Positions 19,178 to 35,545 of a stretch of 51,215 nt of DNA are shown piece after piece. Numbering within the stretch: position 1 is the stretch's first letter; each line of letters starts with the position of its first letter. The stretch comes from a virus, in the IMG/VR virus record IMGVR_UViG_3300030333_004761, positions 1-51,215 of that record; one strand, given 5' to 3'. The translations under genes were made by a program, and so were the position numbers. Under the pieces are notes generated by a model. It saw nothing but the letters and a program-made list of their open reading frames with translations, was not told the DNA's origin and did not search any database.

Positions 19178-19747
19178 CTATTTAAATGGTGGTCCTTGAA
19201 TCCAAGCAACTAAAGAAATACGTTTTCCTGATGTTACTGGGTTTACTTTATGTGGTAACCAAGAAGGGAAAATTATACATTCTCCTCTTTCTGGTTTATA
19301 AGATTTATGAAATATATTATCATACTCAAACTCTAACTCTCCTCCCTCATATTCATTAGGACCAGAAATAAGGAGAGAACAAGATAATTTTCTCTCCTTA
19401 TTTGATCCACTTTTTATAACCGAATTACTAGTATCTACATGCCAATTATAATGATCTCTCTTATCTGCCGTATACACCGTTGACTGAACCTTAGAATGAA
19501 AATAATCTAAATCATATTCAAAATATTCATCATTCGCAGACATCATCATATTATAGATTATACCAGGTAACCATTCATCCCAATTAATCCATGCGTTCTT
19601 AGAAGAACGTACTTGTCCTCCTTGACCACCATCAACACCAGATTGTATATAAGGTAAAGTATCAAGATACTCTACTATAGATTCAATTAGTTTGTCAGGT
19701 AATTTTGAAGGAACCTTGTAAATGAGTTTATCGGTGAATGATTTCAT
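19178..19747 (-). CDS. 2-oxoglutarate/Fe(II) oxygenase (PKHD/P4H-like)
   Basis: A 189-residue protein of the double-stranded beta-helix dioxygenase family. The iron site appears as HYNWHVDTSN (HxD) with a distal HKVNPVTSGKRISLV supplying the third His and the 2-oxoglutarate-binding Arg. ECIIFPSWLPHKV is the usual strand before the distal His. ATG 19747 was chosen over GTG 19756 because of better spacing from GAG. Such enzymes are abundant in cyanophages; substrate unknown. It is one of six cupin-fold genes in the window. Confidence 0.8.
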   Translation of the reverse strand: MKSFTDKLIYKVPSKLPDKLIESIVEYLDTLPYIQSGVDGGQGGQVRSSKNAWINWDEWLPGIIYNMMMSANDEYFEYDLDYFHSKVQSTVYTADKRDHYNWHVDTSNSVIKSGSNKERKLSCSLLISGPNEYEGGELEFEYDNIFHKSYKPERGECIIFPSWLPHKVNPVTSGKRISLVAWIQGPPFK

Positions 19748-19788
19748 GGTGGGCACTCTTTCTAGATAGAGATCTTTTGTACTCCCAC

Positions 19789-20346
19789 CTATGTTGTTGC
19801 TAGATCGAAGTTTACTGAAAACGTCTTTCTAACCTCATCACTCTTATGAGGAGTAACACCATGTAACATATGACCAGGAAAGAAAATAACCTCACCTGCT
19901 TCATAATCAACGTGATGTGTATTTTCGTATTGTAGCAGTTGTTTCATACTTTGGTCAAGGCATGTGTTGTTTCTGTCATAAAAGTAAAAACTTGAAAAAT
20001 CTGGACCTTTATTAAAAAACATAACACACACTAAAGAATTTTCAGTATGATCGTGAATTTCCTGATATTGATTACGTTTATAAAAATTTATCCAAGGATT
20101 AAACATCTTATATCTAAAATTTCTACCAATATCCTTACCCCATATATCTAAACTGGGTTGTACTAAACTTTGATAATCTTCATATGATAACGGTATTCTA
20201 TCACAATCACAAGTACTACCCCAATTAAATTTTGTATTATCAACATCCTTCTCAGTATAAGTTTCTATTTTAGAAAGAAACTCATCAAAATTGGGGATCT
20301 TATATCTCCAATAGAAATAAGATCCCCAAGCAACATTATAACTCAT
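19789..20346 (-). CDS. 2-oxoglutarate/Fe(II) oxygenase-like protein
   Basis: A 185-residue protein with the layout of phage 2OG-Fe(II) oxygenases. Candidate metal residues are QEIHDHTENS and GEVIFFPGHMLHGVTPHKSD followed by EVRKTFSVNFDL, giving the distal His and the Arg. The start overlaps the stop of the preceding 48-residue gene. Substrate unknown; nucleic-acid or protein hydroxylation is possible. Confidence 0.75.
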   Translation of the reverse strand: MSYNVAWGSYFYWRYKIPNFDEFLSKIETYTEKDVDNTKFNWGSTCDCDRIPLSYEDYQSLVQPSLDIWGKDIGRNFRYKMFNPWINFYKRNQYQEIHDHTENSLVCVMFFNKGPDFSSFYFYDRNNTCLDQSMKQLLQYENTHHVDYEAGEVIFFPGHMLHGVTPHKSDEVRKTFSVNFDLATT

Positions 20347-20489
20347 TTTAAAAATGTCCTCAAAAATTTTTCCTTAAAAACCTTGACACGTTTTTTTGCC
20401 TGGCGTAATTTTTGAGGTTTCAAGTGCCTCTTTGCCTCTTTTTTAGAATGGTGCTGCCAATTTGGAACTTTCATCGTCCTAATTTGCAT
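20343..20489 (-). CDS. Small strongly basic hypothetical protein
   Basis: A 48-residue protein from ATG 20489, chosen because GAGGA lies 6 bases upstream (MQIRTMKVPNWQHHSKK...). About 40 percent of residues are Lys, Arg or His, including KRHLKPQKLRQAKKRVK. It overlaps the upstream gene by 11 bases and the downstream oxygenase gene by 4. Possibly nucleic-acid binding; unknown. Confidence 0.45.
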   Translation of the reverse strand: MQIRTMKVPNWQHHSKKEAKRHLKPQKLRQAKKRVKVFKEKFLRTFLK

Positions 20490-20700
20490 TTGGTTCCTCA
20501 AATTGTTTTTTAAACTCTTCAACCTGATCAATTACTTCCTGATCTATAGGGGGACCAGATTGTATAACAGGAGATAACAAAGCAACAGAACCATCCTCTC
20601 TTTTAATTCTCCAAACAGTACGATTCCTTTCAGTCATTGTCAAAAGAAAAGAAAGATTTTTAACTGCTTCTTCTTCAGTTATTTCTTGAATATTAGTCAT
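20479..20700 (-). CDS. Small hypothetical protein
   Basis: A 73-residue acidic protein (MTNIQEITEEEAVKNLSFLL ... IKREDGSVALLSPVIQSGPP ... VEEFKKQFEEPNAN). ATG overlaps the stop of the preceding gene. The centre suggests a small beta hairpin. No family recognised. Confidence 0.5.
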   Translation of the reverse strand: MTNIQEITEEEAVKNLSFLLTMTERNRTVWRIKREDGSVALLSPVIQSGPPIDQEVIDQVEEFKKQFEEPNAN

Positions 20701-20918
20701 TTGTTATGCTCCAAAGCAGCAAACATGTAAGTAACCTGTTCTTCAGGCATTGTTGAAGAAATCATATGAACAGTTTCGGCAAAACCTTCTGTTCCCTCTT
20801 GATCCCATTTCCATTCAACAACCTTATCATAACCTTCTTCGTCAACAATTTTAATTTGACGTTTTGAAAAATTAATGAAAACGTGCTCCACGTAATGTTC
20901 CTCATCAGGTTCAAACAT
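20697..20918 (-). CDS. Small hypothetical protein downstream of gp5
   Basis: A 73-residue acidic protein starting MFEPDEEHYVEHVFINFSKR. ATG 20918 was chosen because GGAG lies 9 bases upstream; a TTG at 20933 would include that site. It contains alternating charged and hydrophobic residues (RQIKIVDEEGYDKVVEWKW), likely a small beta-rich fold. It follows gp5 at short distance, so is probably late. Unknown. Confidence 0.5.
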   Translation of the reverse strand: MFEPDEEHYVEHVFINFSKRQIKIVDEEGYDKVVEWKWDQEGTEGFAETVHMISSTMPEEQVTYMFAALEHNK

Positions 20919-20937
20919 TATAGCATACTCCAATAAA

Positions 20938-23487
20938 TTAGTTTAAGAAAATAGACGATCCTGTGATTGTCACAGCATCCTCTGCATTGATACCAATAGC
21001 AGATTCTGCCTTAATGGTGGTGTTAGATCCTGAATCAGTCTGGATAGCAGTTTCTACATCAACAAATAATGAACCTTCTACTACATCTACTGTAGCACCA
21101 GTATTTCCACATGTCAAGGCAAAAGGACCACTTTCGTTATTAATCGTATACTGAGGAATTGCAGCAGCAGTAGAACCATCTGGATGTAAGGTATCTACAA
21201 TGCTACCATAAACCTCACGATATATTCCAGTTGTTGCTGCCTCTTTCTTCTCAATATTAATATTTGTTTGCTGAGTTAAAGTATTAAGAGTATAAGAATT
21301 TAATGCTGTATGAATTTCATCTCCACTATTATATTTCTGAGTTTGATACTTAGATTCAAAATCATTACCAGTTATAAACATTTTAGGAGCACCAATATTA
21401 TATTCACTTGCTTCAAATCTAAGTGCTGCACCATTTACTGCAAAATCAACATCAGAATTAAATGATATAGTATGTTTTTGAATCTTCTCATTCTTTTTCT
21501 TACCCTTCTTATCCTTTAACTTAGGTGAAGCAGTAGCAGTGATAAACATTGCTCCACCAACTTCTAAATGGAAATCACCAGTAACCTTTAATCTATAATC
21601 ACCATCAACAGTAGTATCACAATTAGCATCAACTAACTTACATTCATCACCATGAACTTCTTTTGTAAAATTACCAGCATAAGTTGTATGGTCAGCAACT
21701 AAAGAACCAGTATCACCTTTTCCACCAGTTTGTTCTTTTCTATAAGATTCACACTTCTTAGCAATCTCTTCCTCTGACATATCAGGATTTTGCTCTCTCA
21801 TTGTCTTTCGACAAACATGTTTTGCAAACTCACTATTGTTAATATTAACAGACGTATGTGTAGTACCACTTGGTTTACGACTTATAGTTGCTTGCCTACC
21901 AGGTGTACCAACATGCATATCATATGCACCATTAATTTCAGTTTTTGCAGACGCTAAGAAAGGATCAACCTCATGTAAAATTGAATCAATTAATGATCCA
22001 CCTTTACTATCACCACCACATGTACCTCTATCACTACCTCTAATTTTATTAATTTCTGCTAATTCTTCTTCAGAGCAATTAGTAGTACCAAATAAAGGGA
22101 ACCATCCAGAATCATCTGTTCCTCCATCAGGTTTTCTATCACAATTACTCTTAATAAACTTCATAAACATTTTTAGAAGTCCAGCAAGAAGATCTACAGC
22201 ACTCTCGGCATTTTTAAATAAGTCTGTTGCTTCTGAGAAAATATTATCTGCTTTTTTCCATTGATCTAAAACTTCCTTCGCCTCACCACCACCAGCAGAA
22301 TCTATAGTACTAGTAACAGAACTAATAATACCTTGTGCCTTTGATATCATACTTTCTACACCACATACAATATCATTAATACTTTCATCTACTGCTTGAT
22401 CTACAAATTCTGTTTGATCTATTAATCCATCCAAATAATCATCTAATATACCTGTTACAGTTTGAATAGGATTACTGACAAGTGATTGTAATTGACTATC
22501 AACTCCACAAAGAGAACCTAAAATCTCTGATGCTGCTTGTTGTACTGCTTGAAGAATAACAAAAGGTGTTCCATCTGCTTGTTCCTGTACATTAGATTCT
22601 TGCAAATCTTCTGCAAGGTTTGCCATTGATTTACGAATAGCAGCAGTAACCTGCGTCATAATACCACCAATAGCATTCTCTAAATTTGCAGTTAATTCTT
22701 CTTTAGTTACCGATTTACCTGTAGTAATATTAGTATATGTACCACTCTCATTTTTAACTAACGTAGATGCTGTCTGAGATATATCTTCTATTCTTCTTTT
22801 TAAATCTCTTTTTACATTCTTAACTGGTCCACCCACACCATTAGCAGAAGGTATAGGTTCTTCTGGATTCCTAGGTTTTAACGGATTACCACCACTTCCA
22901 CCAAGTATAGTACCAATGTTAGAAGGAGATCCAGGTCCACCAGTAGTGGCAGACTTCATTGAAGGCATCTTAACTGTATTAGTCGGTCCTTGTCTTTTGA
23001 ATCCTTCATCCTTACTACTTGCTTGAGAAGAATTAGGAAACATTGGATTCAATGAGGAAGCATTAGGAGCAAGTCCTGGTTCCATATCTTCACCAGTAAA
23101 TGCAAACTTCTTCTTATCAATAGTATCATCAGATTTTTTAACTCTCATAACACCTATAACAATAGGCATTTGAGCAGATTCTCCATCCATGAAGAATCCC
23201 ATAACAATAGCACCAGGTTGTAATTGACCTGATGATTCACCTTGACCGTCATTACCTGCTTGAGATGTATGTTGTAACACACTAGCCCAAGGTAAGTGCT
23301 CTGTAGGCAGATCTCCCGTTGTTCCTCCACGGAAATTAGTATAATATCCAAGCACACGAACTTTGACCCTACCTAACTCCATAGGATCTTCATTATCCTC
23401 TACTTCACCAACCCACCAGAAAAATCCGTCTTTACCAACGAAATTAATATTAGGTTCGTTTAAAATACCGTCTAAGGTGTCTGCCAT
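20938..23487 (-). CDS. 5: gp5 baseplate hub / central spike protein (without lysozyme domain)
   Basis: An 849-residue T4 gp5 counterpart. Residues 1-125 form the OB-fold domain (FFWWVGEVEDNEDPMELGRV, LPWASVLQHTSQAG, PGAIVMGFFMDGESAQMPIV). A long helical middle follows, with Cys residues and a repeated QAVQQAASEIL-type helix. The C-terminal third (from about residue 600) shows the VgrG/gp5 beta-helix style (VDGDYRLKVTGDFHLEVGGA; EAGINAEDAVTITGSSIFL-type ending). In T4 gp5 forms the membrane-piercing spike. I see no T4-type lysozyme domain between OB and helix. A late element lies upstream. Confidence 0.85.
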   Translation of the reverse strand: MADTLDGILNEPNINFVGKDGFFWWVGEVEDNEDPMELGRVKVRVLGYYTNFRGGTTGDLPTEHLPWASVLQHTSQAGNDGQGESSGQLQPGAIVMGFFMDGESAQMPIVIGVMRVKKSDDTIDKKKFAFTGEDMEPGLAPNASSLNPMFPNSSQASSKDEGFKRQGPTNTVKMPSMKSATTGGPGSPSNIGTILGGSGGNPLKPRNPEEPIPSANGVGGPVKNVKRDLKRRIEDISQTASTLVKNESGTYTNITTGKSVTKEELTANLENAIGGIMTQVTAAIRKSMANLAEDLQESNVQEQADGTPFVILQAVQQAASEILGSLCGVDSQLQSLVSNPIQTVTGILDDYLDGLIDQTEFVDQAVDESINDIVCGVESMISKAQGIISSVTSTIDSAGGGEAKEVLDQWKKADNIFSEATDLFKNAESAVDLLAGLLKMFMKFIKSNCDRKPDGGTDDSGWFPLFGTTNCSEEELAEINKIRGSDRGTCGGDSKGGSLIDSILHEVDPFLASAKTEINGAYDMHVGTPGRQATISRKPSGTTHTSVNINNSEFAKHVCRKTMREQNPDMSEEEIAKKCESYRKEQTGGKGDTGSLVADHTTYAGNFTKEVHGDECKLVDANCDTTVDGDYRLKVTGDFHLEVGGAMFITATASPKLKDKKGKKKNEKIQKHTISFNSDVDFAVNGAALRFEASEYNIGAPKMFITGNDFESKYQTQKYNSGDEIHTALNSYTLNTLTQQTNINIEKKEAATTGIYREVYGSIVDTLHPDGSTAAAIPQYTINNESGPFALTCGNTGATVDVVEGSLFVDVETAIQTDSGSNTTIKAESAIGINAEDAVTITGSSIFLN

Positions 23488-23505
23488 CTTACTAGGGTTT
23501 TCTAA

Positions 23506-23513
23506 TATTTATT
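23506..23513 (-). promoter_or_regulatory. Late promoter element AATAAATA upstream of gp5
   Basis: Minus-strand AATAAATA, about 19 bases upstream of the ATG at 23487, overlapping the end of the upstream oxygenase gene. Confidence 0.6.
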
Positions 23514-24117
23514 GATTCACCTGAGGTGCTTCTGCACTAAAGTCATCTCTAGTCAATGGTTTTTTCTCTAAACCAGATTGATATGCTTTCATTACATCTT
23601 CACCCATAATATTAAAAGAAACAACAACTCTCTGTTTAGTACTTCTATTAATTGGTGCTTCATGTAAAATGGATGATGGAAATAATATAAGATCTCCTTC
23701 TCTAACAACTGGTTGGAAATCTACCAAATCTCCATTTGCAGGATCAGGGAATGGTGAGAAAAATCTAGTAGGTTCATGGGCAGCAGAATCATAATCTACA
23801 TAAATTATTCCAGAATACCCAGTTTGACCATGATTATGTGGACCATGACCATCAAATCTCATAGATTTTTCATACCAGAGTGATGTTATATAAACTGGAC
23901 AAGGATAATTCTCAGCAAAATCTTGCATATGAGGGCTAATTATTTCACCAACCGCTTCCATATATGCTGGTATCCCTCTTTCTCTATTCTCATAGAAATC
24001 GCTAAATCCGTATTCAAATGGTATTGCATCCATTAATACTTTCTTTTTGATTTCCCAGTTATCAATAGAGTACTGCTTATATGGTACTCTAAACATTGTA
24101 GTGCTATTGTTGCTCAT
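23509..24117 (-). CDS. 2-oxoglutarate/Fe(II) oxygenase-like protein (TIGR02466-like)
   Basis: A 202-residue protein matching the layout of phage and cyanobacterial 2OG-Fe(II) oxygenases of the TIGR02466 kind. Candidate ligands are GHGPHNHGQTGYSGIIYV and the distal DLILFPSSILHEAPINRST with R in KQRVVVSFNI. It overlaps the preceding cupin-type gene by 14 bases and is part of a run of three cupin-fold genes after ho1. Substrate unknown. Confidence 0.75.
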   Translation of the reverse strand: MSNNSTTMFRVPYKQYSIDNWEIKKKVLMDAIPFEYGFSDFYENRERGIPAYMEAVGEIISPHMQDFAENYPCPVYITSLWYEKSMRFDGHGPHNHGQTGYSGIIYVDYDSAAHEPTRFFSPFPDPANGDLVDFQPVVREGDLILFPSSILHEAPINRSTKQRVVVSFNIMGEDVMKAYQSGLEKKPLTRDDFSAEAPQVNQ

Positions 24118-24583
24118 AATTAAGAATTGCTGTACTTAGTGTTATTCTAGGACTATGGGGATAAGGATCATGATATACACCTTTCGGTATAAAGAGACTA
24201 TCTCCAGGTTCTAATCTATGTATTGATTCATCATCAAACTTATATGATACAGAACCAACTGCCTGTGTAATTAATACATCCACTTTATCTTTGTGTCTGC
24301 CAAACGTTACACAGTCACTACCAAACGAAGTATATACATGACAAGTTTGAATTATATATCCCTTTTCTTTTAGTTCTTCTACTGAATCAAATATAGTTCT
24401 AGGTAAATTTTCATTATGCAATATCATTATAGGACATTTCCATTCCTTTGCATCTGCTATACCTATTTTAATAGTTTTTGTCTTAAATTCATTATCAATC
24501 TTTTTTATACAATCATCCCAAGTAACTAATTTAGCTTTTTCAGAATGATTTCGTGTTAATGTTACTCCTGGTTTTTCCATCAT
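24104..24583 (-). CDS. Cupin/JmjC-like protein
   Basis: A 159-residue protein. The segment TFGRHKDKVDVLITQAVGSV and then LEPGDSLFIPKGVYHDPYPH are the two halves of a cupin or JmjC-type metal site (HxD followed by distal His). RBS GAGGTGAA precedes ATG 24583. The DVLITQ...YKF pattern is typical of JmjC-like ribosomal-oxygenase relatives. Likely an iron enzyme; substrate unknown. Flanked by two 2OG oxygenase genes. Confidence 0.65.
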   Translation of the reverse strand: MMEKPGVTLTRNHSEKAKLVTWDDCIKKIDNEFKTKTIKIGIADAKEWKCPIMILHNENLPRTIFDSVEELKEKGYIIQTCHVYTSFGSDCVTFGRHKDKVDVLITQAVGSVSYKFDDESIHRLEPGDSLFIPKGVYHDPYPHSPRITLSTAILNYEQQ

Positions 24584-25197
24584 TTCACCTCAATTTCTAA
24601 ACCAGCAAGACGTTCAAAATTACCAATCTTACCAGAAGGAAATGTATTAAATGCTATTGTATATCTATCTTCTTTATCTGTATGGTCACCTACACTATGT
24701 TTTATCTGTGAAGGAAATAAAATTAAGTCACCAGCAATACATTCTTGATCATGAAAAACCATACTATCATTTGGATTACCAGATACTTTAATAGTTTGAA
24801 TATCTTTATCTGTATAAAAATACCATTTATTTTCTATCCCAAGAGCAGTAGGAGTATTAGTATCATTTAAATAAAAAATTCCACTAATCATAGAATTAGG
24901 ATGATAATGAGGATGATGATGTTGCATCATACCAGTTTTATTTCCCCAACACTGAGTTATTTTAATTTTTTCACAATGTAATTGTAAATCAACTCTAATT
25001 TCTTCTAAACATTGTTCAAACCAATTAGATAACTTATGATATTCTTCCTTTTTGTGAATATCTGTACGGTCAGTCATAAAATTAAAATTATTCTTAACCC
25101 ACTTTTCTGCCTTTAATAAATTAAAGGCACTAGAAAGTATCTCCTCATCACATTTAAACTTATAAAGTTTTTGAGGAAGAATATTAATAATTTCCAT
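24580..25197 (-). CDS. 2-oxoglutarate/Fe(II) oxygenase-like protein (TIGR02466-like)
   Basis: A 205-residue protein. GMMQHHHPHYHPNSMISGIF carries an HxH-type metal segment and DLILFPSQIKHSVGDHTDKE followed by DRYTIAFNTF carries the distal His and Arg. This layout fits TIGR02466 putative 2OG-Fe(II) oxygenases, which are common in cyanophages. It starts at the stop codon of ho1's downstream boundary (one shared base) and belongs to the late cassette behind cp12. Substrate unknown. Confidence 0.75.
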   Translation of the reverse strand: MEIINILPQKLYKFKCDEEILSSAFNLLKAEKWVKNNFNFMTDRTDIHKKEEYHKLSNWFEQCLEEIRVDLQLHCEKIKITQCWGNKTGMMQHHHPHYHPNSMISGIFYLNDTNTPTALGIENKWYFYTDKDIQTIKVSGNPNDSMVFHDQECIAGDLILFPSQIKHSVGDHTDKEDRYTIAFNTFPSGKIGNFERLAGLEIEVK

Positions 25198-25880
25198 TAA
25201 TTACCTGTAATATAATTCCAAATAACTTTCCATAATGACTTAGTAGCATTTCCTTGAATCTCATCAAAGATGTACATATTAAGTTTAAAAGCATAATTTG
25301 CCTCATCAACTAAAGCACGAATCTCAACATCATCTAAGTCCAAAGAATCTAAATCAGAACGATATCCATCTTTAAATTCTTTAGCATCAGGTACTCTAGG
25401 AAACTCATAAAACATTAAACCTGACCCTTTAGCAGGTTGTAGTGCTTTCTGAGCAATATTCTTAAGAATTTGTCCACCAGATAAATCACCAATATAACGT
25501 GTATAGTGATGTGATATAAGAAGAAATGGAGATTTCTCTGCTACTTCATTAAGTCTGTGTATATAAGTTTTACATGCTTCTGACCCACCATGAGAAACCT
25601 CATTTCTCCACATAGGTCCATAATAATATCTAAGATCGTGTTCAAGAAAATTAGTACGATTAAGTTTTGATTGATATTTTTGTAGAGTTTTAGCAAGAGG
25701 ATCATTTGTCTTACTAATCAAATCCTCCATACAACTATAAACATAATAAAAATCCGTAAGTAACTTACGGTATTCTTCTTCATTTACAACACCTTTAAGA
25801 AAACCCCTTACAAATTTAGTGTTTTCTGCTGCTGAATGGGACTTTTTAGTCCCTTCTTTTAATTCTTTTGCTAGTCCCAT
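25197..25880 (-). CDS. ho1: Heme oxygenase (biliverdin IXalpha-forming)
   Basis: A 227-residue heme oxygenase that opens heme to biliverdin with ferredoxin electrons, the first step of bilin synthesis. The N-terminal LAKELKEGTKKSHSAAENTK holds the proximal heme-ligand His region, and HHYTRYIGDLSGGQILKNIA is the HO signature with the GDLSGG distal helix. I chose ATG 25880 (MGLAKELKEG) by family alignment; it lies directly after the cpeT stop. An upstream ATG at 25910 has a GGGG-type site but lies inside cpeT. Neighbouring cpeT makes a bilin role clear, but no pcyA or pebS is in this window. Confidence 0.93.
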   Translation of the reverse strand: MGLAKELKEGTKKSHSAAENTKFVRGFLKGVVNEEEYRKLLTDFYYVYSCMEDLISKTNDPLAKTLQKYQSKLNRTNFLEHDLRYYYGPMWRNEVSHGGSEACKTYIHRLNEVAEKSPFLLISHHYTRYIGDLSGGQILKNIAQKALQPAKGSGLMFYEFPRVPDAKEFKDGYRSDLDSLDLDDVEIRALVDEANYAFKLNMYIFDEIQGNATKSLWKVIWNYITGN

Positions 25881-25881
25881 A

Positions 25882-26337
25882 TCAAACTTTATTAAATTTG
25901 TAAATTTCATCTGCACCCCAGATGATTCTTCCTTTTGAATCTAAGAATCTATCTCTCATATGTAGTTTATTTTTATAGAGACCAAGTTCTGCATGACCAG
26001 TGATTATTTCACCACTTTCTGTCATGCTAGTATCAAATTGACCCATCCATGAACTACCATCAAACTTTAATATCATATCACAAGTTTCGTCACGTGTCAA
26101 TCCACTATAAGTACCACCCCAATGCTCAAGTATAACTTCAGTATCAGAGATTACTTTTAATTTTTTATTAGTTTTTAAATATGGACTATTCTCTTCCTTT
26201 CTACTCCAATGAATAGAATGAATAAAATCTTCGTCTTGCTCCCACCTTACAAAAACTGATCTATAAAGGTGGGGGCTAGACTGTGCTTGTAGTTTATTTG
26301 ACCAAGTTCCAAGTAACCATGATAAAAAATTAGTCAT
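25882..26337 (-). CDS. cpeT: CpeT-type phycobiliprotein chromophore lyase
   Basis: A 151-residue T-type bilin lyase, shorter than the roughly 200-residue host versions, as known for phage CpeT. LSWLLGTWSNKLQAQSSPHL aligns with the LAG-x-F/W-x-N-x-x-Q opening of CpcT/CpeT. The C-terminal half follows the family plan TCDMILKFDGSSWMGQF, then YKNKLHMRDRFLDSKGRIIW and WGADEIYKF (host WGS...GPFxF). These lyases attach or carry bilins on phycobiliproteins. The gene shares the TAATG junction with cp12 upstream and precedes ho1, so supply and handling of bilins are co-expressed. Confidence 0.85.
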   Translation of the reverse strand: MTNFLSWLLGTWSNKLQAQSSPHLYRSVFVRWEQDEDFIHSIHWSRKEENSPYLKTNKKLKVISDTEVILEHWGGTYSGLTRDETCDMILKFDGSSWMGQFDTSMTESGEIITGHAELGLYKNKLHMRDRFLDSKGRIIWGADEIYKFNKV

Positions 26338-27970: not shown

Positions 27971-30900
27971 TTAGGTACTCTTCATTACGTTTTGATTAGA
28001 ATTCATCTGAGATGCAGTACTAGCTACTTGAGTACCACCACCAGTAGAGATAAATTGTGTTTGCCGTTGTGATCCTGCTAATTGTAAATTTGATATTGTT
28101 GCGTGTGCATCTCTGATGATTTGTTGATTATATTGATTTGATAATGCAATTTGATTCAAAGCTTCTTGTACCATCTGTTGTGTAGATTTATTTATTTTGG
28201 CACGTGCATCATTTCTTTTATCAGAAATCCTCTTAATACTTGCTACTTCTTTTTTAGAATCTCCTCCTGCTTGAGCACCACCACTAGAACGATCACTTGC
28301 TCCTATAGTTCTTCCTGAAGTAGTACCATCAGTAAATCCCGCCCATGATCCACCACTACCAGGTGTTCTACCTCCAGTCCATGACTTATGTTCAGTACTT
28401 GAAGGAGCTGAAGATACATTACCTCCACCACCAGAACTAATTCCACCTAACTGAATAGTTGCAGCAGAACCGATTGTAGGATCTTGAGGACCAATTAAGA
28501 ATTGATTATCCCATATACCTCCACGCCATTTAGAGTCATAAAATTTACCATCTTGCCCCATTTGACCTTGAACAATTCCACGGTCAAGATAATATTGAGG
28601 GGCTGCTCTAAATTCCAAAGCACCACCAACAAATTGAGCAGAAGCATCTCTATATCTTTTATTTCTTATATCATCAAGATATCCTTTAATTTCATCTGGG
28701 GTTTTTCCTGACCACTTAACAGCATCATCTAAAGTTTTTATAGCTTTATATTGTCCAACTCCTCTATCATATACACCAGCAAACTGACCAGGTTCTCCAA
28801 ATATACTGGTAAAATCATTACCACCATAATTACCCGATTTAATTCTATTCGCTGCAACTTGAAGGACATCAGTCGCAGAAACACCTCTACCTGCTTCAGT
28901 AGATAATGCAGCAGCTATACGATACTCTTCAGCAGTTGCTTCTCCACCTTCAGAAGTTGGTATAGTAATATCTGCTGCACGCATACCTTCTTTCTCAGGA
29001 TCTTTACCAGCAAAGAAATCAGTTATTCCTGATACTGCTCCTGATACTCCTTGAGTAAGATTATTCCAAGTATTTTTAAGCCATCCACCCACACCACCAA
29101 AAGGATCAGGTTGTTCTACCCTTTGTGCTTCAAACTGAGGTACTTCTGTTGCTTTCTCACCCAAGACAACAGACCCCATTCCAGGTATCATAAGAGTTGC
29201 CTTTCCAGCAAGTCCACCTAAGTTATTAAACCAACCACCTATACCAGTTTTTAAACCTTCTAAAACACCACCTAATTTACCAAAAGGATTGAATGATTGT
29301 TGAGGTTGAGGTTGTGACTGTCCACCACCACCACCTAAACTACCAAGTAATCCACTAAACAGAGAACCAATGCCACCACCTTGTTTTGGTGCGGGTGCAG
29401 GTTTAGGTTGTTCTTTCTTACCACCTAAAAATGGTAACTTTTGCCACCATCTACTCTCATCTTTAGTTTTACCACCGCCAAATGGCATCTTCGTAATATT
29501 ACTTTCTTTATTACCACCAAATATATTTTTTACACCACTAATAAGTCCACCAAGAAAATATCCAGGTGGTGCCCCATAACCTTGTCTTTTCGCTTCATCT
29601 GCTCTCTGAGAAGTAAGATGAGGATTATTCCTAGTTGCCCTATTGTCTAATGGTACAACATATCCAGTCCCATTATTTTTAACTCCAACCCATTCAGTAC
29701 CATGAGCAGTAATAGTAGTACCAGCAACATCTACATTATATCCAGAATCTGGACCACTAATAACACCACCTTCATTTAAAGAAGGAATTGTACCTCCTTT
29801 TTCAAATTCTCCACCATATTCTTTAAATATCCCACCAAGAAGATTCTTTGCACCACTAACAAGATTTCCAAAGAATCCACCACCAGTTTTATTAGCAGAT
29901 TCCCCACCTTCTGGACCCCAATGTTTGTAGTCTTTATCTTTTGGGGTTGATCTAAATATCCATTTTTGTAGATCTAGAGGAAGGTCTTTGCTTGAACTTG
30001 ACTCTGTTGTTGTAATAGTTTTAGTTTGTGTTTTACCAAAATTTCCAAAGAAACTAGTAATACCCTTTATTCCTTTAGCTAATGGACTTTCTACAAATTG
30101 CTCTTCAAATGAATCTAATGACTTTTGCCATGAAGATGGTAGTTCATTGTCAGTAAAAATAGTTTTTAAATTTTTATCAATTCCTCTAATACTTTCTACT
30201 AATTTTGGATCAATTAAATTGTCAGCATTAATACCAATAGAAGACAGTGGTTTTTTATTGTTTAATACGTCTGTTAAAGTCTCAAAATTCTTTTTCCTTT
30301 CTCCAGGATCATTAATATTGGATAAGAATTTTTGGAAGAAATTATCATCACCTGTTTTATCCTGACCAGTAACTAATACTGGTTTTCCATTATCAATTCC
30401 AAGTATCCCCTGATCACCCTTGGTAAATCCCCATTCATCAATTAGAATATTATTATTCTTATTCGGCTGTGTTCCATCTGAGAAACCACCCCAAGTTTTT
30501 CCACTATTAAATGTAGGTCTACCACCATCAGCAGCACCAAAATCATCTCCACTTTCATCACCAGTAAGGGCATTTATACCCCACATACCTAAACCAACAG
30601 TTCCTCCAACAGCAAGAGTATTAGTTAAGAAACCTCCCCATCCTCTTCCTCTTCCTCTTCTACCTCCTGTAATAGGAATACCACGACCTCCTCTGAGACC
30701 TCTGGTACTAACAAAGGCAACCAGTGCTCTAATACTACTATAAATTCCTTTAATTAATTTGGCTGGGTTTAAAAGGTATGGTAAGGCTATTAAAAGTGTA
30801 CCTAAACCTAATACTACCTTTCCAAATCCAACTATTTTTTCCCACCAACTTGTTTCATCAGATAACAATGCATACAGTCCATCAATAGTATTAGTAAGAC

Positions 30901-31372
30901 CAAATTTAGCTACTCCAGCAATAAATTTAATAATTGAAGTTGCTATTTTAATACCATTAGCTAATGCTTTTTGATTCCTAGGATCTTGTATCCATTTTAA
31001 TATTGGAAGAGCAACAAATAATTTGAATAAACCACTCAACATCCCAACAATAGATTCCCAGAATCCCTTAACACCTCCCTTTGCTACATTTGTTAAGAAA
31101 TTAAACCCTACACCTTTATTATCTTTCTTTGTATAAACTGCTTTAAATTTCTCTCTCTGATTCTGTAATTCAGTTAATCTATTTAATTGTATAGTTTTAA
31201 TACTTTGAACTGAAGAAGCAATACCATTAAGAGTTTCACCTAAATTATTAACTGCTTCTGTATTAGAATAAATGGATCTAGCTACAACAGCATCTTCTGT
31301 CTTGCCAGAAACATCCTTTGTATCTACAAACTTATAAAAATTTATTTTAGAACCTTTTTTTACAGTTGCCAT
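27971..31372 (-). CDS. Tape-measure-like virion protein with SleB-like hydrolase domain
   Basis: A 1133-residue protein. Near residues 40-80 lies a coiled coil (VQSIKTIQLNRLTELQNQRE), then a hydrophobic block (LFKLFVALPILKWIQDPRN, VVLGLGTLLIALPYLL) typical of tape measures. Gly/Pro-rich linkers follow. At about residues 810-960, AAALSTEAGRGVSATDVLQV, AANRIKSGNY and EPGQFAGVYDRGVGQY match the SleB-type cell-wall hydrolase plan (E-A-x-G...VxNR...PxQF), with a candidate catalytic Glu. The C-terminus is Gln/Ser-rich. Very similar in its first third to the 1119-residue neighbour. Probably a tail-lumen protein that opens peptidoglycan at injection. Confidence 0.65.
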   Translation of the reverse strand: MATVKKGSKINFYKFVDTKDVSGKTEDAVVARSIYSNTEAVNNLGETLNGIASSVQSIKTIQLNRLTELQNQREKFKAVYTKKDNKGVGFNFLTNVAKGGVKGFWESIVGMLSGLFKLFVALPILKWIQDPRNQKALANGIKIATSIIKFIAGVAKFGLTNTIDGLYALLSDETSWWEKIVGFGKVVLGLGTLLIALPYLLNPAKLIKGIYSSIRALVAFVSTRGLRGGRGIPITGGRRGRGRGWGGFLTNTLAVGGTVGLGMWGINALTGDESGDDFGAADGGRPTFNSGKTWGGFSDGTQPNKNNNILIDEWGFTKGDQGILGIDNGKPVLVTGQDKTGDDNFFQKFLSNINDPGERKKNFETLTDVLNNKKPLSSIGINADNLIDPKLVESIRGIDKNLKTIFTDNELPSSWQKSLDSFEEQFVESPLAKGIKGITSFFGNFGKTQTKTITTTESSSSKDLPLDLQKWIFRSTPKDKDYKHWGPEGGESANKTGGGFFGNLVSGAKNLLGGIFKEYGGEFEKGGTIPSLNEGGVISGPDSGYNVDVAGTTITAHGTEWVGVKNNGTGYVVPLDNRATRNNPHLTSQRADEAKRQGYGAPPGYFLGGLISGVKNIFGGNKESNITKMPFGGGKTKDESRWWQKLPFLGGKKEQPKPAPAPKQGGGIGSLFSGLLGSLGGGGGQSQPQPQQSFNPFGKLGGVLEGLKTGIGGWFNNLGGLAGKATLMIPGMGSVVLGEKATEVPQFEAQRVEQPDPFGGVGGWLKNTWNNLTQGVSGAVSGITDFFAGKDPEKEGMRAADITIPTSEGGEATAEEYRIAAALSTEAGRGVSATDVLQVAANRIKSGNYGGNDFTSIFGEPGQFAGVYDRGVGQYKAIKTLDDAVKWSGKTPDEIKGYLDDIRNKRYRDASAQFVGGALEFRAAPQYYLDRGIVQGQMGQDGKFYDSKWRGGIWDNQFLIGPQDPTIGSAATIQLGGISSGGGGNVSSAPSSTEHKSWTGGRTPGSGGSWAGFTDGTTSGRTIGASDRSSGGAQAGGDSKKEVASIKRISDKRNDARAKINKSTQQMVQEALNQIALSNQYNQQIIRDAHATISNLQLAGSQRQTQFISTGGGTQVASTASQMNSNQNVMKST

Positions 31373-31374
31373 AT

Positions 31375-34300
31375 TTAACTAACCCTAACCTGTGCAGAAG
31401 ATGGTGAAGCAATTACATAGTTAGTGCCAATATTTATTGGAACAGGCACTGGCATTGGTGCTAACTTCTCTAACATCACTATAATTGGCATAAATTCTAC
31501 TTGTTGTTGCATAGCCCATTGAGCAGATATCCCATCTTTTTGATTTCCTAAATTACTAGTTACAGCTGTTGCAGTTTCATTAAAAACACCAAGTACTTTA
31601 GGATCAATGCCTAATTTGGTACCTAAAGATGTAATAGCACTCTTATAATCACCTCCCATAACTGCATTAAGAGCACCTTTTAATCCAAAATGATCGGCAA
31701 GTTGCCCTACCATTGCCATAGGATTAAATCCACCAGACATAATATTTCCTACTGCCTTACCGAAATCTGGATTAATACTACTAGCAAATGTTCCAATAGC
31801 ACCACCAATATCACCAGACATAATTGATCCAAGCATCTGACCAACACTACTATTTTTTATAGAATCCATTCCAGGTATCATACTAATACCTTGACTAAAT
31901 GCTCCAGCAAGATCACCACTAAGAGCCTTACCAGCAATCTCTCCTATAGGACTATTAACTATACCATCAAGGAAATTATTTGCACCAGGAATCATACCCA
32001 ATCCTGATGATATGGCACCACCAATATCACCAGACATAAGTCCTTTTCCAATACCCATAATACCTTGACCAATAGAACTATCCATAAAACCAGATACTGC
32101 ATCTTGAATACCGCCACCAAATATACCACCAGTAGCTGCACTAAGACCACCAGTTACAGCTCCCATAATATCTCCACTAGCAAGAGAGGAAACAGCGTTA
32201 ACTGCTGCCATAACTGGAGCAACACCAGGAATGAATGATGCTACAGTTTGTACTACAGGATTTTTAACAACTTCTTTTACAGTATTAACAACACCACCAA
32301 CTGCTTTACTAACACCCTTTACAACACCACTAACTGCTTTACTAACACCTTTAAATATCTTACCAAAGAAAAATTCTTTAGGTTTCTCTACTATACCACC
32401 TAATTCCTTTTTACCCCATGTAAATGGATTCCACCATCTTCTACGATTATCATCTTTCTTCTCATTATTTTGATTTTGAACTTTAGTCTTGGTGGAAGTT
32501 GAAGTTGATGGTGCAGATTTCTCATTTGCAAATACATCAAGAAAATCCCACCATTGATTTTTTCCACCATTACTTGTATATTGCTTCTCATGACGTTCTA
32601 CACCGTCTGTAGACCAATCATATTCACCTTCACTAAAATCAGTATTTTCATCAAATAAACCATTTTCTCTACCCATCAAAGTATTGAAAATGTGACCAAT
32701 ATTAGGAAGTTGATCAAACATAGACGATATTTGTCTATTAACCCATCCTAAAAGAGGTAAGTTATTAAAGATAGCATCTTCAGTATCTCTAATTCCAGTT
32801 ACATCAAAATCACGTGCAAATAAGAATGCATCAAGTGCAGTAGAAAATGGCCAACTAACACCAGCAAAATCTAAAATACCAGCAACAGTTTCTAAAGTAG
32901 CACCCCAAGGGTCTCCTTGCGAAAGACGATCATATGCAAAAGCAAGGTTAACAAGACCACCAATCCAAGGTATTATAGCAGCTGCTCTCTTACCTATTTT
33001 TTGTCCTGCATCAGCAAAAGACTTAATACCCTTTGATTCGAGAAACTGTGTACTTGCTCTCCATAGCGGAGTCTCCCGAATTGCCCTCATAAATGAATCA
33101 ATTTTAGGTCTAATATAATCAACAATAGGATTAAGTATTGGATCTATTGTTGGTCTTATAGTATCAGTAAACCATTTTTTAGAAGCATTACTTATACTAT
33201 CCCAACCACCTTTTAGTTTAGCAGGAATATCTGCTAATCCTTGTCCTACTCTTGTTCCAAATCTCTTTAAATTTTCAAATTGTTTACCAACGAATTCGTT
33301 GGTCATTCTGATTCCTGTTCTACCTAGTTCAACACCTTGTCCTATCTTTTTACCGCCCCAATCAGTAAAATTACCCCAACCTGTTTTAATATTACGCCAG
33401 ATTGAACCACCAGTATCACTTAACCCTTCTCCTATCTTTTTACCTGTACCTGTTACACTTTCAACAATATTATCCCAGATATTTTTTGTACTCTCTAAAC
33501 CCTTGTTAATGAGATTTCCAGTACCTGTCCTAGTATTGGTTATAAAGTCACCAAATCCTTTTCTTATATTCTCAAGAATACCACCTGTTTCACCACCTGT
33601 AACCTTAGAACCAAATATTTTTTTGCCTTGATTAGAAAACCAATCACCTATTTTTCCAAATATACCTCTATTTCCTTCTGCCCCACTTATTGTAATCTTA
33701 TCACCAAAAGCCCATTTTCTTACATTACCAACTGCATCACCAAGCCAATCTACAATCTTTCTCTTATTTGACTTAGTACCTTCAATAAGATCACCAGTTA
33801 TATTAGTACCTATTCTAAAAGTATCTTTTATTTTATCGGTTAACTTACCTAACCAATTTTTCTTTTTAGGTACATCACCAGTAATTTCTGCTGGTTTTCT
33901 CCAAAATTCCCACCACTTCTTTTTTCCTTTTCCACCTTCTGTAATAGGAACACGTTTTTTTGGTCTTGGTCCATCAACCCAATCACTTACACCACCACCA
34001 ACCATTCCACCAACAGTTAATAAAGCACCAATACCAGAAATAGCTAATGCTATTTGGCCAAATGCCGTTAACCTTTGTGCAAATGTTTTCTCTTCTCCAA
34101 GCAAATTGTCAACGGTAGTCATTATACTACCAGTTAACCAAGTAGAGAAATCATAGAATTTTTGGAAAACAAATGCAGTTTTTCTAATAAATTCTGTTAG
34201 TTTTTCTGTATTACGTGGATCTTGTATCCATTTTAATAATTCAGTACCAAGAATAAACGAAGCAAATTGCATTGCTAACGTTGTAAATGGTGCAAGAATT

Positions 34301-34734
34301 TCTTCTAACCATCCAAAACCTTTAGAAAAACCTTTTGCTACTTTAGTTTTTTCAGATCCTTTTAACTTGGGTGTTTTATTCTTAAACCGATTTTCCTGAA
34401 TTCTTTCTGATTCTGCATCAAGTTCTCTTCTTCTTTGACGACGCTCTAATTTATCTTGTAATTGCTCTTCTGTTAATTGTTTTTCAGCAATATCCTCAAT
34501 ATCATTTACAACTTGACCAATACTTGTTAGTGTTAAACCTAATCTATTAATACTATAGGTAACTGTTTTAGCTGCAGAAATTGTAGGAGACTTTACACCA
34601 GAAGTACCCTTTAAACTGACTAATTTGTAGGCTTTAAGCTGTGCCACTATTGTTTTTTCTGCTGCTCTTTCATTCGCCTTTGCTCTTCTTCTAAGAATTG
34701 CATTAACATATTGATATAAATTTCCTTTTCCCAA
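31375..34734 (-). CDS. Tape-measure-like tail protein
   Basis: A 1119-residue protein with TTG start at 34734 inside the gp51 frame. A charged coiled coil (LTEEQLQDKLERRQRRRELD and on) is followed by a membrane-like block with LLKWIQDPRNTEKLTEFIRK, shared with the next gene. The C-terminal part (about residues 845-1010) has tandem Gly/Ile-rich repeats (SGDIMGAVTGGLSAATGGIF, SGDIGGAISSGLGMIPG, SGDLAGAFSQGISMIPG, SGDIGGAIGTFASS). Gene order relative to T4 (26-51-27-28-29-48-54) places it at the gp29 position; gp29 is the T4 tail-length protein (590 residues). I call it a tape measure on position and composition. Confidence 0.6.
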   Translation of the reverse strand: MGKGNLYQYVNAILRRRAKANERAAEKTIVAQLKAYKLVSLKGTSGVKSPTISAAKTVTYSINRLGLTLTSIGQVVNDIEDIAEKQLTEEQLQDKLERRQRRRELDAESERIQENRFKNKTPKLKGSEKTKVAKGFSKGFGWLEEILAPFTTLAMQFASFILGTELLKWIQDPRNTEKLTEFIRKTAFVFQKFYDFSTWLTGSIMTTVDNLLGEEKTFAQRLTAFGQIALAISGIGALLTVGGMVGGGVSDWVDGPRPKKRVPITEGGKGKKKWWEFWRKPAEITGDVPKKKNWLGKLTDKIKDTFRIGTNITGDLIEGTKSNKRKIVDWLGDAVGNVRKWAFGDKITISGAEGNRGIFGKIGDWFSNQGKKIFGSKVTGGETGGILENIRKGFGDFITNTRTGTGNLINKGLESTKNIWDNIVESVTGTGKKIGEGLSDTGGSIWRNIKTGWGNFTDWGGKKIGQGVELGRTGIRMTNEFVGKQFENLKRFGTRVGQGLADIPAKLKGGWDSISNASKKWFTDTIRPTIDPILNPIVDYIRPKIDSFMRAIRETPLWRASTQFLESKGIKSFADAGQKIGKRAAAIIPWIGGLVNLAFAYDRLSQGDPWGATLETVAGILDFAGVSWPFSTALDAFLFARDFDVTGIRDTEDAIFNNLPLLGWVNRQISSMFDQLPNIGHIFNTLMGRENGLFDENTDFSEGEYDWSTDGVERHEKQYTSNGGKNQWWDFLDVFANEKSAPSTSTSTKTKVQNQNNEKKDDNRRRWWNPFTWGKKELGGIVEKPKEFFFGKIFKGVSKAVSGVVKGVSKAVGGVVNTVKEVVKNPVVQTVASFIPGVAPVMAAVNAVSSLASGDIMGAVTGGLSAATGGIFGGGIQDAVSGFMDSSIGQGIMGIGKGLMSGDIGGAISSGLGMIPGANNFLDGIVNSPIGEIAGKALSGDLAGAFSQGISMIPGMDSIKNSSVGQMLGSIMSGDIGGAIGTFASSINPDFGKAVGNIMSGGFNPMAMVGQLADHFGLKGALNAVMGGDYKSAITSLGTKLGIDPKVLGVFNETATAVTSNLGNQKDGISAQWAMQQQVEFMPIIVMLEKLAPMPVPVPINIGTNYVIASPSSAQVRVS

Positions 34735-34856
34735 GGCATCAAATTATCAATATACTCTATTTGCCACTTATGATGATGTATTAGAGCAAAATTGGTTTCA
34801 TAGTAAATTGCTAGGTTCGTATGAAGAAGAGCTACTCGAAAAAAGCTGCTAATCCC
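34647..34856 (-). CDS. 51: gp51-like reading frame without a standard start, probably reached by -1 frameshift from gp26
   Basis: This frame is open from 34856 (just after an in-frame TGA) to TAG 34647. It encodes ETNFALIHHHKWQIEYIDNL then MPWEKEIYINMLMQFLEEEQ and a basic tail, matching the HHK...LPxEKxxYxxxLxxxL style of small cyanophage gp51 (baseplate hub assembly). No ATG, GTG or TTG precedes the conserved part; the only ATG (34739) lies within it. The frame overlaps the 3' end of gp26, where T TTT TTC occurs, so a gp26-gp51 fusion by -1 slippage is the likely product. An ATT start at 34808 or 34853 is an alternative. Confidence 0.6.
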   Translation of the reverse strand, partial: GISSFFRVALLHTNLAIYYETNFALIHHHKWQIEYIDNLMPWEKEIYINMLMQFLEEEQRRMKEQQKKQ

Positions 34857-35545
34857 TCAAGAATAATTTCATTCTCTTTTTTTGTATTAGGATTAACCAC
34901 CTTAACAGTATGCTTCAATTTAGGCATAGTATCAAAGAAATCTTGTATTAATTTAAATTGCTTACTACTAAGCCCTTCAAAGAATTCAATAATTTCTTCT
35001 TGTGGTAGTTCCTTACAATCATGAACCTCATCTTCAGTTGCAATGCTTGATACACATCCAGCTGCCATTTTAAAAATTTGTTCCATACCAACTTGTTGTC
35101 CATCTTGGAAATTCATTTCTACAAATGATTCAAGACTAGGATAACACATATTAACAATCACTTCATCAGATAATTTAAGTTCTTTTTTATGACCTCTAGT
35201 CTTTTGAACTTTGATGTCATCTAAAGGAATTTTAACTTTAACTGTTGTTTCTCCATCATCAGGACAAGTTACCATTAAATCAACACTTTCACCAACAGAT
35301 TTAGTACGAATCTGAAGAAATAAAAATTCAATATCAAATGTAGAAAGTTGATCTACATCCTTAATATCAGTACATGTACTGATAATATCCTTAATTGCAG
35401 TGATTATATCTGCAGTTTGTCCTGTTTCAGTTGCTAAAAGAAGCAACTTCTCTTCTTTTACAAGAAAAGGTCTATAATTAACAACCCTACCATCAGAAGG
35501 TAGTTTCATTTTGTACTTAGGTACATTTAATTTAGGTAATGCCAT
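34832..35545 (-). CDS. 26: gp26 baseplate hub protein
   Basis: A 237-residue T4 gp26 family protein (T4 gp26 is 208 residues). The opening MALPKLNVPKYKMKLPSDGR and NYRPFLVKEEKLLLLATETG are diagnostic. The middle includes QLSTFDIEFLFLQIRTKSVG and a CPDDGE turn, and the C-terminal half is helical (EEIIEFFEGLSSKQFKLIQD). T4 gp26 acts in hub assembly. The last codons run across a TTTTTTC stretch into a TAG, and a second frame (gp51) continues beyond. A CTAAATA late element lies upstream. Confidence 0.88.
   Translation of the reverse strand: MALPKLNVPKYKMKLPSDGRVVNYRPFLVKEEKLLLLATETGQTADIITAIKDIISTCTDIKDVDQLSTFDIEFLFLQIRTKSVGESVDLMVTCPDDGETTVKVKIPLDDIKVQKTRGHKKELKLSDEVIVNMCYPSLESFVEMNFQDGQQVGMEQIFKMAAGCVSSIATEDEVHDCKELPQEEIIEFFEGLSSKQFKLIQDFFDTMPKLKHTVKVVNPNTKKENEIILEGLAAFFE
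34838..34844 (-). promoter_or_regulatory. Candidate -1 programmed frameshift site (T TTT TTC)
   Basis: In the gp26 frame the minus-strand mRNA reads GCT TTT TTC GAG TAG; the heptamer T TTT TTC fits X XXY YYZ. A -1 slip gives TTT TTT CGA GTA GCT and continues in the gp51 frame for 60-odd codons. The gp26 TAG falls two codons after the site, as is common for recoding signals. Confidence 0.6.

Follow-up and report, generated by a model that had tools for sequence, protein, structure and literature searches.

The window analysed here is a 51,215-nucleotide stretch of viral DNA (IMG/VR record IMGVR_UViG_3300030333_004761) whose minus strand carries gp26, the gp51 coding region and a long gene that probably belongs to the tape-measure region (Table 1). 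The last codons of gp26 read GCT TTT TTC GAG TAG. As the first-pass annotation had noted, this places a T TTT TTC heptamer in phase near the gp26 stop, with TTT in the P site and TTC in the A site, and a −1 slip would leave both codons able to pair again as TTT. From position 34856 the −1 frame runs without interruption through the gp26 stop to its own stop at 34647, and the gp51 translation in this frame starts with FFRVALLH and ends with QQKKQ before a TAG codon. The GTG start of the next gene at 34647 overlaps this stop as TAGTG. As at lambda G/GT-type loci, an in-phase heptamer of the form X XXY YYZ is accompanied by a −1 frame that remains open past the stop of the short gene.

Table 1. 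Features of the gp26–gp51 locus and the adjoining gene (positions in the window)
Feature	Position	Strand	Basis or remark
gp26, short form (TAC-N-like), ATG to TAG	34832..35545	(-)	237 aa; PF12322 T4_baseplate E=2e-71, phrog_150 E=1.2e-83
Slippery heptamer T TTT TTC, in phase	34838..34844	(-)	sequence; T TTT TTY in phase in 170/170 readable contigs
Shine-Dalgarno-like GAGGG, 9 nt 5' of heptamer	34854..34858	(-)	anti-SD duplex energy, synonymous codon bias; probable stimulator
gp26 TAG stop	34832..34834	(-)	read through in the −1 frame as part of GTA GCT
gp51 coding region, C-terminal part of the long form, −1 frame	34647..34844	(-)	phrog_634 E=6.7e-29
Predicted frameshift product, ~299 aa	34647..35545	(-)	gp26 residues 1-236 + 63 residues of gp51
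Next gene, GTG start, ~1090 aa	31375..34647	(-)	phrog_790 E=1.5e-176; tape-measure phrog_9959 E=3.7e-5; probable tape-measure-region protein

To follow the slip site across relatives, as the first-pass annotation had proposed, we used 173 matching viral contigs. The gp26 stop is present in 171 of them; one (L102) was excluded because its gp26 reading frame ends early, well 5' of the slip-site region, leaving 170 readable metagenomic homologues. Every one carries T TTT TTC or T TTT TTT in phase near the end of gp26, with the A-site codon as the second-last gp26 codon in 161 contigs and as the last in 9. The heptamer is also found in phase in 11 isolates (P-SSM2, HTVC008M, KVP40, phiN3, Atu_ph04, pf16, AS-yj, BUCT-ZZ01, Milchi, IC12 and S-CRM01). 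When 32 clusters formed at 90% identity were compared and Met and Trp columns were excluded, 60 gp26 columns had an invariant amino acid, but only two of these, the slip-site pair TTT and TTC, were invariant in codon as well. These counts are uncorrected for relatedness, and the other 58 invariant columns serve as the internal control. Elsewhere in gp26, phenylalanine is encoded by TTT 265 times and by TTC 106 times, and the codon that precedes the slip codons ends in T in every case. Conservation of the heptamer is beyond chance, since it occurs in all 170 contigs and its two codons are the only codon-invariant columns.

The −1 frame also bears a coding signature close to the slip site. Standard start codons are absent from the first 17 codons 3' of the slip site in 27 of 40 unique sequences from the window's own group. 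Pairwise differences among these 27 (codons 2-16) are 0.138, 0.199 and 0.486 at the first, second and third positions of −1-frame codons, which is a protein-coding pattern. As judged by these substitutions, the pattern shows that the −1 frame is under coding constraint upstream of any start.

Two kinds of candidate frameshift stimulator were found near the heptamer. A GGAGG-like element ends ∼9–10 nt 5' of it and has a mean predicted anti-SD duplex energy of about −7.6 kcal/mol over 75 representatives. Although this element is partly forced by Glu-Gly residues in the protein, synonymous choices also favor an SD-like sequence: GAG is used at the element in 56 of 72 cases versus 470 of 1650 elsewhere, and leucine codons just 5' of it are TTG or CTG in 36 cases versus 266 of 1147 elsewhere. 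The second candidate is a downstream hairpin of up to 11 bp, beginning 5 nt 3' of the heptamer, that is common to 28 representatives of a P-SSM2-like group. Its mean z is −3.9 against 0.0 in a control window, a value that is partly selected because the class was chosen by its pairing, and the base pair at +20/+34 varies in a compensating manner (T-A 17, G-C 7, A-T 2). P-SSM2, which lies outside this 28-contig class, has a hairpin of its own with z=-5.1. RNAalifold run over mixed groups gave no common RNA structure because stems differ between groups; division into classes yielded the one clear hairpin class. Sequences of the window's own group give a weak signal for downstream structure (mean z between about −0.8 and −1.0; z=-0.84 for the window itself). 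The stimulator that we propose for the window is the SD-like GAGGG, which is a probable one, and not a hairpin.

Comparison with phage T4 also bears on the predicted fusion. PF12322 covers residues 1-201 of T4 gp51 (249 aa) and phrog_150 covers almost its full length, whereas T4 gp26 (208 aa) matches PF12322 only. When six T4-type gp51 proteins were aligned with six T4-type gp26 proteins, hhalign gave E=2.3e-20 over 192 columns, with a C-terminal extension present only in gp51; T4-type gp51 also matches cyanophage gp26 (hhalign E=2.7e-15). A profile of twelve −1-frame tails, with T4 sequences kept out of it, aligns in the expected register with the gp51 C-terminus (E=3.3e-11) but does not match T4-type gp26 (E=0.16). 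This T4-free profile replaced an earlier comparison that was dropped as circular, one of its sets having included T4 gp51. With an HMM of the tail only, T4 gp51 ranked first of 495 sequences (E=0.0012). The paralogy of T4-type gp51 and gp26, together with tails that match only the gp51 C-terminus, shows that T4 gp51 is the natural in-frame equivalent of the predicted fusion, namely a gp26 paralogue joined to the tail that is called gp51 in cyanophages.

The T4 and cyanophage proteins belong to the same family (PF12322 plus the gp51 tail, phrog_150/634), and the short and long forms share the N-terminal domain. They differ in that T4 has two separate, divergent genes without a slip site, whereas the cyanophage has one gene and a −1 slip. 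The short/long pair is therefore supplied by predicted frameshifting in cyanophages and by genes 26 and 51 in T4. The two-gene solution is also present in Aeromonas phage 31, Acinetobacter PhT2 and Proteus phiP4-3, and in RB43 the two genes are in tandem.

The best explanation for these data is that a T4-like cyanophage encodes its pair of tail-assembly chaperones here and that the long form is produced by a −1 slip on T TTT TTC, with the SD-like GAGGG probably helping. We hold this reading, which is in essence the gp26–gp51 fusion that the first-pass annotation had put forward, with high confidence because of the invariant in-phase heptamer, the coding constraint on the −1 frame, the stimulator-like elements and the in-frame T4 gp51; the occurrence of the shift itself is what we infer from them. 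Most ribosomes would end at the gp26 stop and yield the short form. A fraction would move back one base on the heptamer, probably assisted by the upstream element, and would read through the gp26 stop in the −1 frame to give a gp26–gp51 long form of ∼299 residues. The two forms would probably cooperate on the tape measure during assembly of the hub and tail tube, in the manner of lambda gpG and gpGT and of T4 gp26 and gp51, which are encoded by separate genes.

The layout of tail assembly chaperones is a short form and its −1-frameshifted long form, encoded upstream of the tape-measure region, and lambda gpG and gpGT act together on the tape measure. Xu, Hendrix and Duda are said to have described such −1 frameshifted chaperones of long-tailed phages in 2004. 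The cyanophage locus resembles lambda G/GT in having a short form and a predicted frameshift-extended long form 5' of a probable tape-measure region. It differs from other chaperone families in having no detectable sequence match to them in Pfam or PHROGs, and its slip site is T TTT TTC. The AlphaFold model of gp26 has a pLDDT of 86.9; a fold search of this model against the PDB returned nothing better than E=0.59, with the HK97 chaperone 2ob9 at E=1.7, and a PDB sequence search gave no convincing relative. The C-terminus of the T4-type gp51 model is of low confidence. From homology and layout we infer a short/long chaperone function, and these lend support to the lambda-like arrangement suggested at first pass.

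A different function could be imagined for the same products. The frameshift might be real while gp26 and its extended form are structural or regulatory parts of the hub, as database names such as baseplate hub and hub assembly catalyst imply, and some earlier T4 genetics put gp26 in the hub (PMC3004832). The neighboring gene had been called tape-measure-like, and this stands only in part: the tape-measure profile phrog_9959 does match, but weakly and as the best tape-measure profile found, while the top profile, phrog_790, is labeled endolysin. Moreover, the next annotated gene in BUCT-ZZ01 is a late sigma factor. Nevertheless, the short/long layout 5' of a probable tape-measure region fits known chaperone loci, and in HTVC008M a putative tail tape measure, annotated as such and supported by profile, follows the same pair after one small intervening gene. 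T4 gp26 and gp51 are listed among hub-assembly chaperones, and gp51, although needed for assembly, is not part of the finished particle (PMC3004832). T4-like chaperone genes have also been identified by Vladimirov, Gautam and Davidson (2022), as cited in PMC10885494 and PMC12846349. We consider it unlikely that the products are hub parts rather than tape-measure chaperones.

Even less probable, in our estimation, is that gp51 is translated independently, through translational coupling with re-initiation at AUG or another codon close to the gp26 stop, and that the heptamer is only part of a conserved Phe-Phe. Start codons in suitable places do exist in many relatives, where ATG or GTG occurs between −1 and +14 nt around the gp26 stop (ATG from +2 to +14; GTG at −1). 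The claim that gp51 lacks a start of its own is thus correct for the window but not for the family. In the window there is no ATG, GTG or TTG until 92 nt past the gp26 stop, and the first one lies inside the conserved part, where about half of gp51 has already been read; 54 contigs have no start before +50. Homologues with their own ATG, which the first-pass annotation had listed as evidence against a fusion, are common (ATG at +5 in 73 contigs), yet the slip site is invariant in them regardless. In these relatives gp51 might also be produced as a free protein. An unconventional start is not favored either. Codon 1 after the slip, whose TA also belongs to the gp26 stop, is ATA in 75% of window-group sequences but GTA in the window and GTA or CTA in others, so that no near-cognate start is conserved among the window-group sequences. 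Conserved residues begin directly at the slip site, the two Phe codons are nucleotide-invariant, and T4 makes the fused form in frame, all of which argue for the frameshift.

The Vibrio phages D510 and 1.255.O speak for independent translation. Loss of the slip site had been named at first pass as evidence that would count against frameshifting; the site is retained in all 170 contigs but is absent from these two phages, which have a TAATG restart instead. This stop-start overlap is a third way of expressing the second frame. In the same phages (L193 2297-3253; L194 2312-3204), the gp26/gp51 pair, which has no slip site, adjoins anaerobic ribonucleotide reductase genes.

A sequencing error would produce a one-base shift of frame like this one, and gene decay is another conceivable source. 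Both are refuted by the same −1 relation and invariant heptamer in 170 contigs and 11 isolates, and we assign them a negligible probability.

Tape-measure chaperones were for a long time the missing piece of T4 tail assembly. Vladimirov et al. reportedly found in 2022 that several T4-like groups have conserved frameshifting, with genes 26 and 51 serving in T4. Earlier, a 2016 review had named T4 as the exception among long-tailed phages, in which the G/GT frameshift is otherwise conserved (PMC5009743). According to PMC10885494, which cites the 2022 paper, some T4-like phages have one short gene and one fused long gene, and poly-T slippery signals in TAC-N genes of T4-like phages are mentioned in PMC12846349. 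The latter source describes TAC-N/TAC-NC pairs of Vandenendeviridae and Andersonviridae in which the short form likewise ends in a poly-T slippery site and the C-terminal part is commonly annotated, wrongly, as a gene of its own; these are different phages, however, and their motif is given as GTTTTT. The arrangement is already known in kind, and the reinterpretation of T4 hub-assembly genes proposed at first pass is not new, as papers citing the 2022 work indicate. Because the link between cyanophages and T4 was published then, the remaining value of our analysis is practical. What it adds is the scale of conservation, the likely stimulators, the exceptions, the annotation gaps and a faint indication of a third T4 paralogue, gp28. 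The cyanophage locus represents the one-gene version and helps in understanding the two T4 genes. The relatives also form a natural series of ways in which the ratio of short to long forms might be set: slip alone, slip with a hairpin, slip with an ATG, restart without a slip, and two genes.

The relationship of T4 gp28 is far less clear. T4-type gp28 matches T4-type gp26 with hhalign E=3e-5 and a probability of 73%, and phrog_1140 matches T4 gp26 at E=9e-4, which bears on T4 gene 28 (L088 6349-6879). Profile comparison of T4-type gp28 with cyanophage gp26 gave no match. It is conceivable, though we rather doubt it, that gp28 is a third, highly diverged chaperone paralogue and that genes 26, 28 and 51 all derive from one ancestral frameshifted gene of the kind still present in cyanophages. 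If this were true, three T4 hub-assembly genes of unclear role would share a single descent.

Several cyanophage and Aeromonas records omit the gp51 gene or place its start wrongly. It is absent from the entries deposited for Syn30, ACG-2014b and Aeromonas AS-yj, and that of S-CAM22 begins it ∼50 nt past the gp26 stop (the four regions are L089 2025-2206, L090 2025-2206, L087 3250-3418 and L091 2076-2213). These omissions and late starts occur because gp51 has no usable start.

Several other genes in the window were noted. The two long genes that follow gp51 (27971-31372 and 31375-34647) share a homologous N-terminal region of ∼200 residues (27.8% identity, E=1e-12), so that the tape-measure region looks duplicated; PHROGs labels both families endolysin. 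Several small putative 2-oxoglutarate/Fe(II) oxygenases, recognized by sequence motifs, cluster around the gp5 hub gene at 19178-25197. Two adjacent genes at 25197-26337 are haem oxygenase-like and CpeT-like bilin lyase-like by translated sequence, and bilin genes of this sort are known from cyanophages.
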